Assembly (NCBI RefSeq): GCF_018228765.1
Contig: NZ_CP073695.1
Location: 496,001-560,000 of the forward strand
Direction of reading: 5' to 3'
DNA: 64,000 nucleotides
Source: Halorubrum ruber
Lineage (GTDB): Archaea; Halobacteriota; Halobacteria; Halobacteriales; Haloferacaceae
Numbering within the stretch: position 1 is the stretch's first letter; every line of letters starts with the position of its first letter. Below the pieces are notes generated by a model. The model was not told the origin of the DNA, ran no database searches, and worked only from the letters and a program-made list of their open reading frames with translations. Below are positions 32,093-47,343 of the stretch, piece after piece. Made by a program: the position numbers and the translations under genes.

Positions 32093-32130
32093 ACAGAGTT
32101 TGGTAGCAGTTCGTGGAAGAACCGACAGGA

Positions 32131-34038
32131 ATGTTCGATAAGGTTCTCGTGGCGAACCGCGGCGAGATCGCGGTCCGGGTGATGCGCGCCTGTGAGGAGC
32201 TCGGCGTCGACACCGTCGCCGTCTACAGCGACGCCGACAAGCACGGCGGCCACGTCCGGTATGCGGACGAGGCGTACAACGTCGGGCCCGCACGCGCGGC
32301 CGACTCCTATCTCGACGGCGAGGCGGTCGTCGAGGCGGCGCACTCGGCCGGCGCCGACGCGATCCACCCCGGGTACGGGTTCCTCGCGGAGAACGCCGAC
32401 TTCGCGGCCCGCGTCGAGGCCGCAGAGGGGATCACGTGGATCGGCCCAGCCAGCGACGCGATGGAGCGGCTCGGCGAGAAGACCCACGCGCGCCGCGTGA
32501 TGGACGACGCCGACGTGCCGATCGTCCCCGGGACGACGGAGCCGGTCACCGACGTCGAGGCGGTGACCGACTTCGGCGACGAGCACGGCTACCCGGTCGC
32601 GATCAAGGCCGAGGGCGGCGGCGGCGGCCGCGGGATGAAGGTCGTCGAGAGCGCCGACGAGGCTGAGGAGGCGCTCGAGTCTGCCAAGCGCGAGGGGGAG
32701 GCGTACTTCTCGAACGACTCGGTGTACCTCGAACGGTACCTCCAGACCCCCCGCCACGTCGAGGTCCAGATCGTCGCCGACGACCCGGTTGCCGCGGGGT
32801 CCGACGGCGGAAGCGGCGACGTCGACGCCGCGGTGACCGAGAGCGACGTGGTCCACCTCGGCGAGCGCGACTGCTCGCTCCAGCGCCGCCACCAGAAGGT
32901 GATCGAGGAGGGGCCCTCCCCCGCGCTCTCCGACGAGCTGCGCGAGAAGATCGGCGAGGCGGCCCGCCGGGGCGTCGCCGCTGCGGACTACACCAACGCC
33001 GGGACGGTCGAGTTCCTCGTTGAGGAGGACCCCGACCGCGACCCGTCCGAGCCGCTCGGCCCGGACACGCCGTTCTACTTCCTCGAAGTGAACACGCGGA
33101 TCCAGGTCGAACACACCGTCACGGAGGCGCTGACGGGGATCGACATCGTGAAGGAACAGCTGCGGGTCGCGAGCGGCGAGGGGCTCTCCGTCTCGCAGGA
33201 CGACGTGGAGCTTGAGGGTCATGCGATCGAGTTCCGAATCAACGCCGAGGACGCCGCGAACGAGTTCCAGCCCGCCAACGAGGGGGCACTGGAGACGTAC
33301 GACCCGCCGGGCGGGATCGGCGTCCGCGTCGACGACGCGCTCCGGCAGGGCGACGAGCTCGTCACCGACTACGACTCGATGATCGCGAAGCTGATCGTCT
33401 GGGCCCCGGACCGCGAGGAGTGTCTCGCGCGCTCGAAGCGCGCGCTCGCGGAGTACGACGTCGACGGCGTCGTCACCATCGTCCCCTTCCACCGGCTCAT
33501 GCTCGACGACGAGCGCTTCGTCGACGGGACGCACACGACGAAGTACCTCGACGAGGATCTCGACCGCGAGTTAGTCGCCGAGGCGCAGGAGAAGTGGGGG
33601 ACCGAGTCGTCCGCCGCGGGCGACGGCGACGACGAGGAGGTCACCGAGCGCGAGTTCACCGTCGAGGTGAACGGCAAGCGCTTCGACGTGGAGTTAGAGG
33701 AGCGCGGCGCGCCCGCGATTCCGGTGCCGGAGGGCGGCGGTGGCGGCGGGAGCGGCGGCCAGCAGCGTCCGCCGCAGGCGAAGTCCGACGACGGCGGCGA
33801 CGACGGAGTCGATGTCGCGGAGGGCGGCGAGGCCATCGACGCGGAGATGCAGGGGACGATCCTCTCGGTCGACGTCGACGAGGGCGACGAGGTCGCCGCC
33901 GGCGACGTGGTCTGCGTCCTCGAGGCGATGAAGATGGAGAACGACGTGGTCGCCGAGCGCGGCGGCACCGTCGCGAGCGTCCACGTCGGCGAGGGCGACA
34001 GCGTCGACATGGGCGACGTGCTGATCGTGCTGGAGTGA
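32131..34038 (+). CDS. pccA: Acyl-CoA (propionyl/acetyl) carboxylase biotin carboxylase/carrier subunit
   Basis: 635 residues. The N-terminal biotin carboxylase (residues 1 to about 460) begins [20 protein letters not shown] and holds the ATP-grasp loop [12 protein letters not shown], the catalytic [15 protein letters not shown] and [17 protein letters not shown] Ser/Gly/Asp insert within the ATP-grasp domain ([15 protein letters not shown]) is a low-complexity addition. After an acidic linker comes the biotinyl domain, with the target lysine in LEAMKMEND (about residue 601). It carboxylates its own biotin for PccB. It has its own promoter region with iterons, separate from pccBX. No biotin ligase gene is nearby. 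Confidence 0.95.
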
Positions 34039-34263
34039 GGTCGGGCGTTCCCTGGACGCTGTCGTTTATAAATAATCGACGGTGCTGCGGTGAGAGGTTC
34101 TGAGGCCTACCTGCTCACTTGGATCCGTTGAAATCTCCAGTGAGTGGTATACGTCCCCCCCGCCGGTCGTACAGACGTAGCGACGAGCGATTTCGGGAGT
34201 AGGTATCGCAGATCTGCGGCCGCGATGTCGTATCTAACTAACCACGAACGACGGCGACGAGCG

Positions 34264-34660
34264 CTTATAAATGGGGTGCGGTGGCGCGCCTGCGAGCGGC
34301 CGGAGCGAAGCGGAGGCCGCGAGCCAGCCCGCGAGGGAGTCAGTCGCCGGAGCGAAGCGATGGCGACTGACGAGGCTGGGGAGGCGTGAGGCTGTGCGGT
34401 GCTGTGCGGGGCGGGACTCAAAGGGGCAGCCGTGAGGGCGTCGTAGGCGACGAAAGCACCGCAGGGAGCGAACGGAGTGAGCGACCGAGGAGCGTGGTTC
34501 GAGACGCCTTCGGCGTCTCGTCATCACGAAAGGCGCGAAGCGCCTTTCGAACGACAGCGAGCGTACGACGCCCTCACGGCTGGGGCTTTGGAGGCACTCG
34601 CCGCGGTAGCGTCAGTAACTAACAAACAGCTGACAGAAGCGCCCCAATTCTCTTTATAAA
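34264..34660 (-). repeat. Structured intergenic repeat, copy B (candidate ncRNA)
   Basis: Minus-strand copy of the same element, about 397 bp, between TATA-like boxes at 34653-34660 and 34265-34271. Arms 34564-34582 and 34427-34445 pair over 19 bp with a sequence unlike the other copies. The loop is enlarged by two hairpins, CGAAAGGCGC-TTC-GCGCCTTTCG and CGAGACGCC-GAA-GGCGTCTCG. The second stem is GTCAGTCGCC/GGCGACTGAC. The distance from TATA box to conserved core is about 62 bp, longer than in other copies. The sequence at 34039-34263, before it, holds no gene, only another TTTATAAATAATCGAC box at 34064. Confidence 0.8.
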
Positions 34661-34783
34661 CGGCCTCTCTCTCGACGTACTACACGTACTCCCGCTACCG
34701 ATCAGGAAGCGAGCGCGGTCTTGCGGTCGATTCAGTCGCGCAACCCTGAAAGTATCAAACGTAGAGTATTCTGTACAGAGAGC

Positions 34784-35200
34784 CTATCCAGCAATTCGTC
34801 GGACCGCGGTTCCGATGGTAAAGCCGAGCGTCCCCACGATCGCCGCGGCAACTGCGCTTCCGACGACGGCGTATCTGACGAGCCACAGCAGTCCAGGTTT
34901 GGCTCCGCTCAGTCCGATACCACCGTAGTTCAGGATGACTCCGGCGACCGCAGCGAACACGAGCAACCAACTCACTCCGATCCCCCCGTTAGAGTACGCT
35001 TGGACCGCAACGAAGATCGTGAGCAGCACGGCGTACCCCTGCCACCATAGCAGCAAATGGATCTGAGGAAAGCCTACTGTCCTCACCACCGCGAAGTAGG
35101 AGATCGACGCGAGGAAGAGTATTCCGGCACCGATACTCCACCGTCTCGTTCGCTTTCGATCCTCACCCAGTAGGAGGGTTCGAGTGTCGACGGGGACCAT
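34784..35200 (-). CDS. Four-span membrane protein framed by two structured repeats
   Basis: 138 residues. Four membrane helices (around GILFLASISYF, LLWWQGYAVLLTIFVA, VSWLLVFAAVAGVILNYGG and VGSAVAAAIVGTLGFTIG) follow a basic, Arg-rich cytoplasmic start. I do not recognise the family. The gene and its flanks are more AT-rich than their surroundings. It sits alone between repeat copy B (downstream) and copy C (upstream), which point away from each other. That position and the base composition suggest acquired cargo. Confidence 0.75.
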   Translation of the reverse strand: MVPVDTRTLLLGEDRKRTRRWSIGAGILFLASISYFAVVRTVGFPQIHLLLWWQGYAVLLTIFVAVQAYSNGGIGVSWLLVFAAVAGVILNYGGIGLSGAKPGLLWLVRYAVVGSAVAAAIVGTLGFTIGTAVRRIAG

Positions 35201-35311
35201 TCATAATCCGCCTTTCTAGGTGTAAAAAGTAAGAAATTACGACGTGACTGATTCGTACTCCTCATCGTCCGGCCGTTTCAGTCGAAAATAGGATCTCAGC
35301 GGAAGCAATTG

Positions 35312-35673
35312 TTTATAAATAGCCGTTGGCGGATCGACGGCGAGGACCGCCGAAGCCCCAGCCGGGAGGACCGCGCACGCTCGTTGTCGCCCGAAAATCT
35401 CCGATTTTCGGGATGACGAGACGCCTCCGGCGTCTCGAACCACGCGCTTCAGTCGCTCGCGATCCTCGCTCCTTCCAGTGCTTACGTCGCCTGCGCGGTC
35501 CTCCCGGCTGCCCCTTCGAGTCCCACCCGACCGCGACCGCACAGCACCTCACACCTCCCCAGCCTCGCGGTTCGCGCTCTCCGAGCGCTCACCGCGTCCC
35601 TCGCGCGTGCTGTCTCGCGGCCGCCGGTGGCGGCCGCTCGCAGGCACGCGCCGACCGCATCGTTTGTTTATAA
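35312..35673 (+). repeat. Structured intergenic repeat, copy C (candidate ncRNA)
   Basis: Plus-strand copy, 362 bp between TTTATAA boxes at 35312 and 35667. Arms 35359-35377 and 35492-35510 form the same 19-bp stem with a third sequence. Its loop has two inserted hairpins, CCCGAAAATC-TCC-GATTTTCGGG and CGAGACGCC-TCC-GGCGTCTCG. The conserved right-hand block CGGCTGCCCCTTCGAGTCCC and the GCGCGTGC/GCACGCGC stem follow. The end TTTATAAGCAATCGTCGCCGTCGC matches copy A except for one base. The TATA box is about 33 bp before the conserved core. Confidence 0.8.
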
Positions 35674-35742: not shown

Positions 35743-36585
35743 TTACCGACCCCGCAATCCCAGCAGCTCCCGCGTCTGCTCGGGCGTCGCCACGGGCCGC
35801 CCCAGCTCCTCGGCGATCCGCGCCGCGCGCGCCACGAGCTCCTCGTTCGTCGCCAGCTCGCCCTTCTCGTAGTACCGGTTGTCCTCTAAGCCGACCCGGA
35901 CGTGCCCGCCGAGCAGCAGCGACTGGGTCGTCAGCGGGAGCTGGTGCGGGCCGAACCCGATCACGTTGAACTCGACGCCCTCGGGGAGCGCCTCGACCCG
36001 ATTCATCAGATTCCGCGGGTGCGGCGGCGACGTGGTCCCGCCGCCGAACAGGAAGTTGAGGTAGGGGGGATCCTCTAAGTCGTCCAGAACCTCCAACGAC
36101 TCGTTGAGATGACCGTCGTTGAACACCTCCAGTTCGGGTTTGATCTCCCGCTCCTTCATCTCCGCGTGGAGCGACGACACCAGCTCCCGGGTGTTCTCCG
36201 ACGTGAGCCGGTCGTAGCGGTTGAGCGGCCCCATGTCGAGCGACGCCATCTCGGGGGCGGGGTCGGTCCGGAGCGGCTCGTGCCGGAGTGCGTCCGGCGC
36301 CGCCGTCCCGCCCGTCGAGTGCTGGAGGACCGCCTCGTCGGTCGCCTCCCGGACCGCGTCGGCGACCTCCTGAAACCGCTCCGCCGAGAAGGCGCGCTCC
36401 CCGTCGTCGCGGCGGGCGTGGAGGTGGAGCACGCTGGCGCCCGCCTCCTCGCAGGCGGCCGCGGCCGCCGCGATCTCTTCGGGCGTCTCCGGGAGGTCCG
36501 GGTGCGCCTCCTTCCCGTGGACGCCGCCCGTGAGCGCCGCAGTGATGATCGCCGGCTTCCCGTCGAGGTAGTCGTCGTACGTCAT
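35743..36585 (-). CDS. BKACE (DUF849) 3-keto-acid cleavage enzyme
   Basis: 280 residues. A TIM-barrel enzyme of the beta-keto acid cleavage family, which splits a 3-keto acid with acetyl-CoA to acetoacetate and an acyl-CoA. Signature parts are AIITAALTGG at the start, SVLHLHARRD (metal-binding HxH), VLQHSTGG, and the later NFLFGGG and GGHVRVGLEDN. The reference reaction is 3-keto-5-aminohexanoate cleavage in lysine fermentation, but the family is broad and the substrate here is unknown. Its ATG overlaps the stop of the upstream small gene. Confidence 0.9.
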   Translation of the reverse strand: MTYDDYLDGKPAIITAALTGGVHGKEAHPDLPETPEEIAAAAAACEEAGASVLHLHARRDDGERAFSAERFQEVADAVREATDEAVLQHSTGGTAAPDALRHEPLRTDPAPEMASLDMGPLNRYDRLTSENTRELVSSLHAEMKEREIKPELEVFNDGHLNESLEVLDDLEDPPYLNFLFGGGTTSPPHPRNLMNRVEALPEGVEFNVIGFGPHQLPLTTQSLLLGGHVRVGLEDNRYYEKGELATNEELVARAARIAEELGRPVATPEQTRELLGLRGR

Positions 36586-46913: not shown

Positions 46914-47052
46914 TTATAAACAGCTCCTGGGAGGTCGATATCGAGCACCGCCGAAGTCTCAGTCGTTCGGCCGTACGACGGTAGATCTTATAAATAACCG
47001 ATCGACACGCACACCGCCGAAGCCCCAGCCGCTCGGCCGCACAATTGTGGGA
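46914..47052 (+). repeat. Two truncated 5' modules of the structured repeat
   Basis: Directly before copy D lie two short partial copies, each a TTATAAA box (46914 and 46988), a spacer of about 25 bp, and the conserved leader ACCGCCGAAGYCYCAGYCG. They then stop with a mini-hairpin-like end (TCGGCCGYAC). With copy D this makes three consecutive 5' modules about 70 bp apart. The 157 bp from 46757 to 46913 hold only the acyl-CoA ligase promoter and AT-rich sequence; I see no gene. Confidence 0.65.
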
Positions 47053-47343
47053 TTTATAAACCGGCGACCGACACGAACGCCACCGAAGCCCCAGCCGGGA
47101 GGCGGGCGCACGCTCGCCGCGCTCCTCGGTCGCTCACTCCGTTCGCTCCCTGCGGTGCTCGCGTCGCCTGCGCCCGCCTCCCGGCTGCCCCTTCGAGTCC
47201 CGCCCCGCACCGCTCCGCACAACTCCTCACGCCTCCCCAGCCTCGTCGCTCGCGCTTAAAAGCGCTCGCGACTCCCTCGCGCGTGCGACTCGCGCCCTCC
47301 GGGCGCTCGTCGGCACGCGCCACCGCACATATTCTATTTAAAA
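47053..47343 (+). repeat. Structured intergenic repeat, copy D (candidate ncRNA)
   Basis: 291 bp from TTTATAAA (47053) to a degenerate box TATTTAAAA (47336). Arms 47092-47110 and 47169-47187 are perfectly complementary over 19 bp. The loop holds GCTCCTCGGTCGCTCACT without the inserted hairpins of copies B and C. The second stem GTCGC/GCGAC and the third GCGCGTGC/GCACGCGC are present. The box is about 25 bp before the conserved CACCGAAGCCCCAGCCG. It abuts the 3' end of metX on the opposite strand. Confidence 0.8.

Follow-up and report, generated by a model that had tools for sequence, protein, structure and literature searches.

A membrane-protein gene between two inverted repeat copies in Halorubrum ruber, probably a passenger of a decayed transposase-less unit

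In the archaeon Halorubrum ruber, a lone gene for a small membrane protein is framed by two inverted copies, B and C, of an abundant repeat, which raises the question of how this arrangement arose. Comparing the 64,000-nucleotide stretch that contains it (the window) with related genomes, we put at about 0.7 the probability that the gene and copy B make up a decayed, transposase-less transposon passenger unit that entered the tail of copy C, an older member of the repeat family.

Layout of the gap and kinship of the repeat copies

The convergent genes pccA (plus strand) and BKACE (minus strand) enclose a gap that holds copy B, the membrane-protein gene and copy C (Table 1). Inverted arms I1-I3 (34286-34603 and 35338-35651), 71-80% complementary, were found on either side of ORF 34784-35200, bearing out the original prediction of two inverted repeat copies around this gene. 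The gene and its margins are indeed AT-richer than their surroundings, with a GC fraction of about 0.51-0.60 compared to 0.67-0.75 outside (60% for the gene and 69% for the window). No match for the window gene was obtained with PADLOC and a defence role is not supported; the gene is taken here as a passenger, its biochemical role unassigned.

Table 1. Features of the pccA–BKACE gap and its borders (window positions)
Feature	Position	Strand	Basis and remarks
pccA-like biotin-dependent carboxylase gene	32113..34038	+	ORF; name from the original prediction; left neighbour, outside the unit
Left remnant of the TTTATAAA tail of the C-site copy	34062..34120		Continuous with the C-site copy in G027 and G005
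Decayed left end of the putative transposase-less unit (arm 1)	34121..34180	+	Read by eye against G004, G013, G007 and G017
Repeat copy B, putative cargo of the unit	34264..34661	+ (inferred RNA strand; minus in the original prediction)	Fold z -6.4; wobble asymmetry
Two-hairpin module of copy B	34495..34554 (about)		Sequence; missing from the G017 orthologue
Passenger gene, 138-aa membrane protein	34784..35200	-	About four hydrophobic segments; no family
Decayed right end of the putative unit (arm 2)	35257..35306	-	HMM, 17.6 bits, E 5e-4
Repeat copy C, putatively the older host copy, outside the unit	35311..35673	- (inferred RNA strand; plus in the original prediction)	Fold z -7.8
Two-hairpin module of copy C	35387..35442 (about)		Sequence; missing from the G017 orthologue
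BKACE gene	35743..36585	-	ORF, tblastn in relatives; name from the original prediction; right neighbour, outside the unit

Copies B and C had been thought to share a recent origin, since both carry a two-hairpin module that the other two copies of the window, A (at 8.3 kb) and D (at 47.1 kb), are without. This distribution was confirmed, and the module was found in 10 of 70 copies extracted from the same genome, a sample biased to C-like copies. Yet the orthologues of B and C in the relative G017 both lack it, and it occurs as a stand-alone intergenic palindrome in a wide range of haloarchaeal genera, at 64 places in 32 plasmid records. Because it is missing from both orthologues and is found alone in other haloarchaea, the module is uninformative on how B and C are related and, as far as sequence comparison goes, its presence in both is no evidence of common origin. 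The stand-alone palindromes (loci L287-L289 and L303-L308) are bordered by GCCTCGGGGTC/GACCCCGAGGC and may have arisen from IS605-type ends.

B and C are 75% identical to each other and rank only 35th and 33rd in each other's BLAST matches; B is closer to locus L025 (89% identical) and C to L002 (84%). That the two copies bound a single mobile cassette and share a recent origin, as the inverted copies, the lone AT-richer gene between them and the hairpin module in both would suggest, is in our view highly improbable given these rankings and the behaviour of the module; in addition, neither copy encodes a transposase, and C-site copies exist without the gene and B (see below). A composite transposon bounded by B and C was rejected on their 75% identity and on the occurrence of C by itself.

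Ends of the unit and its transposon family

Orthologues of pccA served as anchors for comparing the site in 27 relatives of the same genus. On the pccA side, the sequence of G027 and G005 continues unbroken through TTTATAAA tail units into the C-site copy, with neither the gene nor B, and C-site copies without gene and B are also present in G015 and G002. In the window, an interruption of this C-tail sequence begins at 34121 (GGATCCGTTGAAATCTCC) and ends at 35306 (GGATCTCAGCGGAAGC), so that the left remnant of the tail at 34062..34120 is now cut off from copy C by the inserted unit. Between these ends lie only ORF 34784-35200 and repeat B, a transposase being absent. In G004, G013 and G007, ends of this type are clearly recognisable and enclose other small ORFs (160, 104 and 69 aa, respectively), and in G017 a unit at the same site holds copy B together with the membrane-protein gene, in an arrangement that spans two contigs. 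In G018 and G023, pccA directly adjoins BKACE. The core of the C-site copy is lost in G004 and G005, as it is in copy D of G016 and G004.

A mobile-type unit therefore does exist at this locus, as originally proposed, but its ends would be 34121 and 35306 rather than B and C, with C outside. Most relatives have the repeat but not the gene, and the gene and C differ in age; these two points largely contradict B, gene and C as a single unit.

The preservation of the ends varies among species. Arm 1 and arm 2 scored 28.8 and 42.1 bits with the end HMMs in G004, 24.5 and 32.9 in G013, 23.6 and 37.2 in G007, and 20.9 and 34.9 in G017 (across its two contigs). In the window, arm 1 fell below the reporting limit of the HMM search, arm 2 scored only 17.6 bits, and no 8-bp target duplication is readable at the decayed ends; these points count against the insertion model, as does the splitting of the G017 arrangement between two contigs.

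A search of the H. ruber genome with the end motif GGCTCTGTTGAAATCCT gave 29 matches and the controls 0; the transposon family that this motif marks has two distinct arms. The 1370-bp element at locus L204 of G017 encodes a transposase of the DDE_Tnp_1 type (E 2.8e-18), bears the duplication ACTGTTCC and has terminal ends in common with the gene-bearing units. This transposase passes Pfam DDE_Tnp_1 only, and the related transposase fragment at L208 is closest to the NF033579 IS5 family (131.9 bits, below the cut-off of 140). Among 17 end pairs checked, 8-bp duplications are perfect in 8 and match at 7 of 8 positions in 2. Transposase-less units of the family carry small genes (L196, L200, L201, L207 and most of L203) or a B-type repeat (L197, L198, L199 and L202). 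The membrane-protein gene occupies a 599-bp unit of G038 by itself, and in G003 it adjoins a lipoprotein of the L200 type. It is thus the comparison between genomes that shows the proposed unit ends, the uninterrupted sites, the gene in units elsewhere, a matching transposase and the 8-bp duplications of the family.

Locus L203 (G004:C1:997500-1009500) is an island of adjoining transposon units, each with a small gene for a membrane protein or lipoprotein, and includes a distant relative of the window gene. Beside other units lie a 554-aa protein with weak nuclease-type matches (L200:1086-2750) and a 160-aa HNH endonuclease (L201:513-995), both possibly defence cargo.

Two histories of the C site were weighed: one unit may have stayed there and exchanged its cargo, or each species may have received its own unit in a hot spot formed by C's AT-rich tail. 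Right arms at the site are mostly mutual nearest relatives and carry diagnostic changes common to five species. Left arms there are not mutual nearest relatives, so repeated insertion at one site is possible. Moreover, in four further pairs of the H. ruber genome (L202, L209, L239 and L240), one copy is carried by a unit that lies to the tail side of the other, in L202 with a perfect duplication, AAATCGGT, within a tail motif of that other copy. Such loci and the differing left arms fit separate hot-spot insertions, but the diagnostic changes common to the right arms of five species speak against them, and we consider this explanation unlikely.

Our preferred reading remains one unit with changing cargo. 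Copy C would be an old resident of the convergent gap, present first. A non-autonomous transposon of the IS5-type family with GGCTCTGTTGAAATCCT ends would then have entered and split C's AT-rich TTTATAAA tail, presumably mobilised in trans by an L204-like transposase, and copy B would have joined the unit as cargo. Since the same site and right arm hold other small genes in other species, the cargo may have been swapped without the unit leaving the site, probably through homologous recombination of the common arms. The window unit is probably no longer mobile, as its ends are decayed.

The repeat family and the orientation of its copies

With up to 2 mismatches allowed, the core motif CTGCCCCTTYGARTCCC has 194 matches (102 and 92 by strand) in the 3.02-Mb genome compared to 1 for the reversed control, and the four copies in the 64-kb window correspond to the average density of the genome. 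All 19 sampled genomes of the genus, this one included, have 10-192 matches, compared to 0-2 in the remaining 274 genomes of the order. Some of the low-copy matches in other genera are real relatives, carrying CTTTCAGTCCC, and a related element is present on a Halobaculum plasmid; judged from these sequences, the family is therefore wider than the genus and has expanded within it. Among the CTTTCAGTCCC relatives L292-L300, four (L292, L294, L295 and L296) have two stem domains that are inverted to each other and a few dozen bases apart.

No Rfam family matched the repeat above its gathering threshold, the best weak matches reaching 13.6 and 10.6 bits. The repeat is thus a covarying family absent from Rfam with about 190 copies, making up roughly 2% of the genome if copies average 330 bp. 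Retroposon (SINE-like) spread was rejected, as the genome has no RVT_1 reverse transcriptase and sites A and E show no clean target duplication; so was an origin from phages, which gave no match, or plasmids, which gave six partial matches.

Copy D (window 47086-47326) is kept at the same place in G027, G022, G023, G016 and G004, its core being lost between GCCCC direct repeats in G016 and G004. Tandem tail units of 57-66 bp (TTTATAAA...AAAGCCCCAGCCGC), which repeat one strand of the long stem, number from one to about seven per copy (for example, at window 46942-47097). Considered as an RNA promoter, TTTATAAA keeps a nearly constant spacing to the outer stem in about 60% of copies, but one too short for a standard archaeal start site.

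In an alignment of 54 cores, 23 of 38 predicted pairs have changes on both sides with pairing kept. Within the 18 covarying pairs, which were selected by Watson-Crick rules only, we counted 4 G-U cells and 30 A-C cells, the cells not being independent; by pair, any G-U occurs in 4 and any A-C in 9. Since A-C becomes G-U when the complementary strand is read, this wobble asymmetry predicts that a structured RNA is more likely encoded on the strand opposite to that originally proposed, a strand that is purine-rich. Putative transcription of B would then run rightwards and that of C leftwards, so that 3' ends face the gene; the 5' ends that were thought to face it are probably the reverse. The folding-energy difference between strands (lower on the reverse strand in 112 of 112) was discarded as strand evidence, being mostly compositional (mean z -4.1 versus -4.9).

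Neighbouring copies within 1.6 kb are arranged tail-to-tail in 13 cases, directly in 2 and head-to-head in 0 (13 of 15, binomial 9e-7). Among the 190 of 194 copies listed, tail-to-tail, direct and head-to-head pairs number 20, 4 and 1 within 4 kb, and 3, 17 and 12 at 4-9 kb. When copies were placed uniformly in simulation, 3.1 close opposed pairs within 1.1 kb were obtained, with at least 1 in 96% of trials. One close opposed pair is thus expected by chance at this repeat density, but the orientation skew is not, and chance was rejected as a full explanation. The direction of neighbouring genes was rejected as the cause as well, the outer genes being mixed.

Such a skew is what would be expected if the structured RNAs, with their 3' ends to the gene, regulated or insulated the gene that they frame and the layout were selected. 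The covarying stems are consistent with this, as is G027, in which pairs within 2.5 kb number 8, 1 and 1 in the same order (135 of 145 copies listed). Several framed genes are common to different species: five G027 pairs frame orthologues of genes framed in H. ruber, including hisA-, msrA- and phosphoribosyltransferase-like genes, and the two skews are therefore not independent. On the other side, the arrangement at the pccA–BKACE locus came by insertion, no function is common to the framed genes, and four of the H. ruber pairs are explained by transposon-borne copies. We thus regard a selected functional frame at this locus as quite unlikely. Similarly little weight is given to a broader form, in which the abundant repeat would encode structured RNAs whose genes multiplied within Halorubrum, having been few in a haloarchaeal ancestor. 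Its tail-to-tail copies would then form a functional two-sided frame, regulatory or insulating, around single genes, and the window gene would have been captured into one such frame. Transposon-borne copies explain only four or five of the H. ruber pairs.

Comparison with known systems

Like a composite transposon, the locus has a gene between two inverted repeated sequences; unlike one, B and C encode no transposase, are not sisters, and C lies outside the unit. In bacterial mobile insertion cassettes, passenger genes are carried between IS ends. The passenger gene of the present unit likewise sits between IS ends with the transposase absent, but the ends are probably IS5-type, the host is an archaeon and the unit is nested in the tail of another repeat. 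The term mobile insertion cassette occurs in PMC3129680.

The repeat family itself resembles the PATEs, palindrome-associated transposable elements of Haloquadratum present in 177-194 copies (PMC3119063), in being non-coding, in its many copies per genome, and in its palindromes, core deletions and insertions of small elements. It differs in its large covarying multi-stem core and tandem tail units of 57 bp, and any link to IS605 ends is putative, the optional hairpin module alone having been traced to stand-alone palindromes of other genera.

The unit also compares with a passenger MITE of IS5 type. Ends shared with an IS are found in the family and at the site in G004, G007, G013 and G017, the passenger unit has no transposase, and its cargo occurs elsewhere (G038 and G003); in the window itself these ends are degenerate, arm 2 scoring 17.6 bits and arm 1 being read by eye only. 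A transposase-less haloarchaeal MITE with a passenger ORF is represented by the ISH2-type HqIRS32 of Haloquadratum (PMC3119063). As in HqIRS32, the unit combines ends of a known transposon family with a short non-transposase ORF and no transposase, and its mobilisation in trans is putative. Unlike HqIRS32, its cargo varies between units and at one fixed site, and in some units a structured repeat accompanies the gene or takes its place. Transposase-less ends with exchangeable cargo at a fixed site would thus offer a route for small orphan genes between archaeal genomes.
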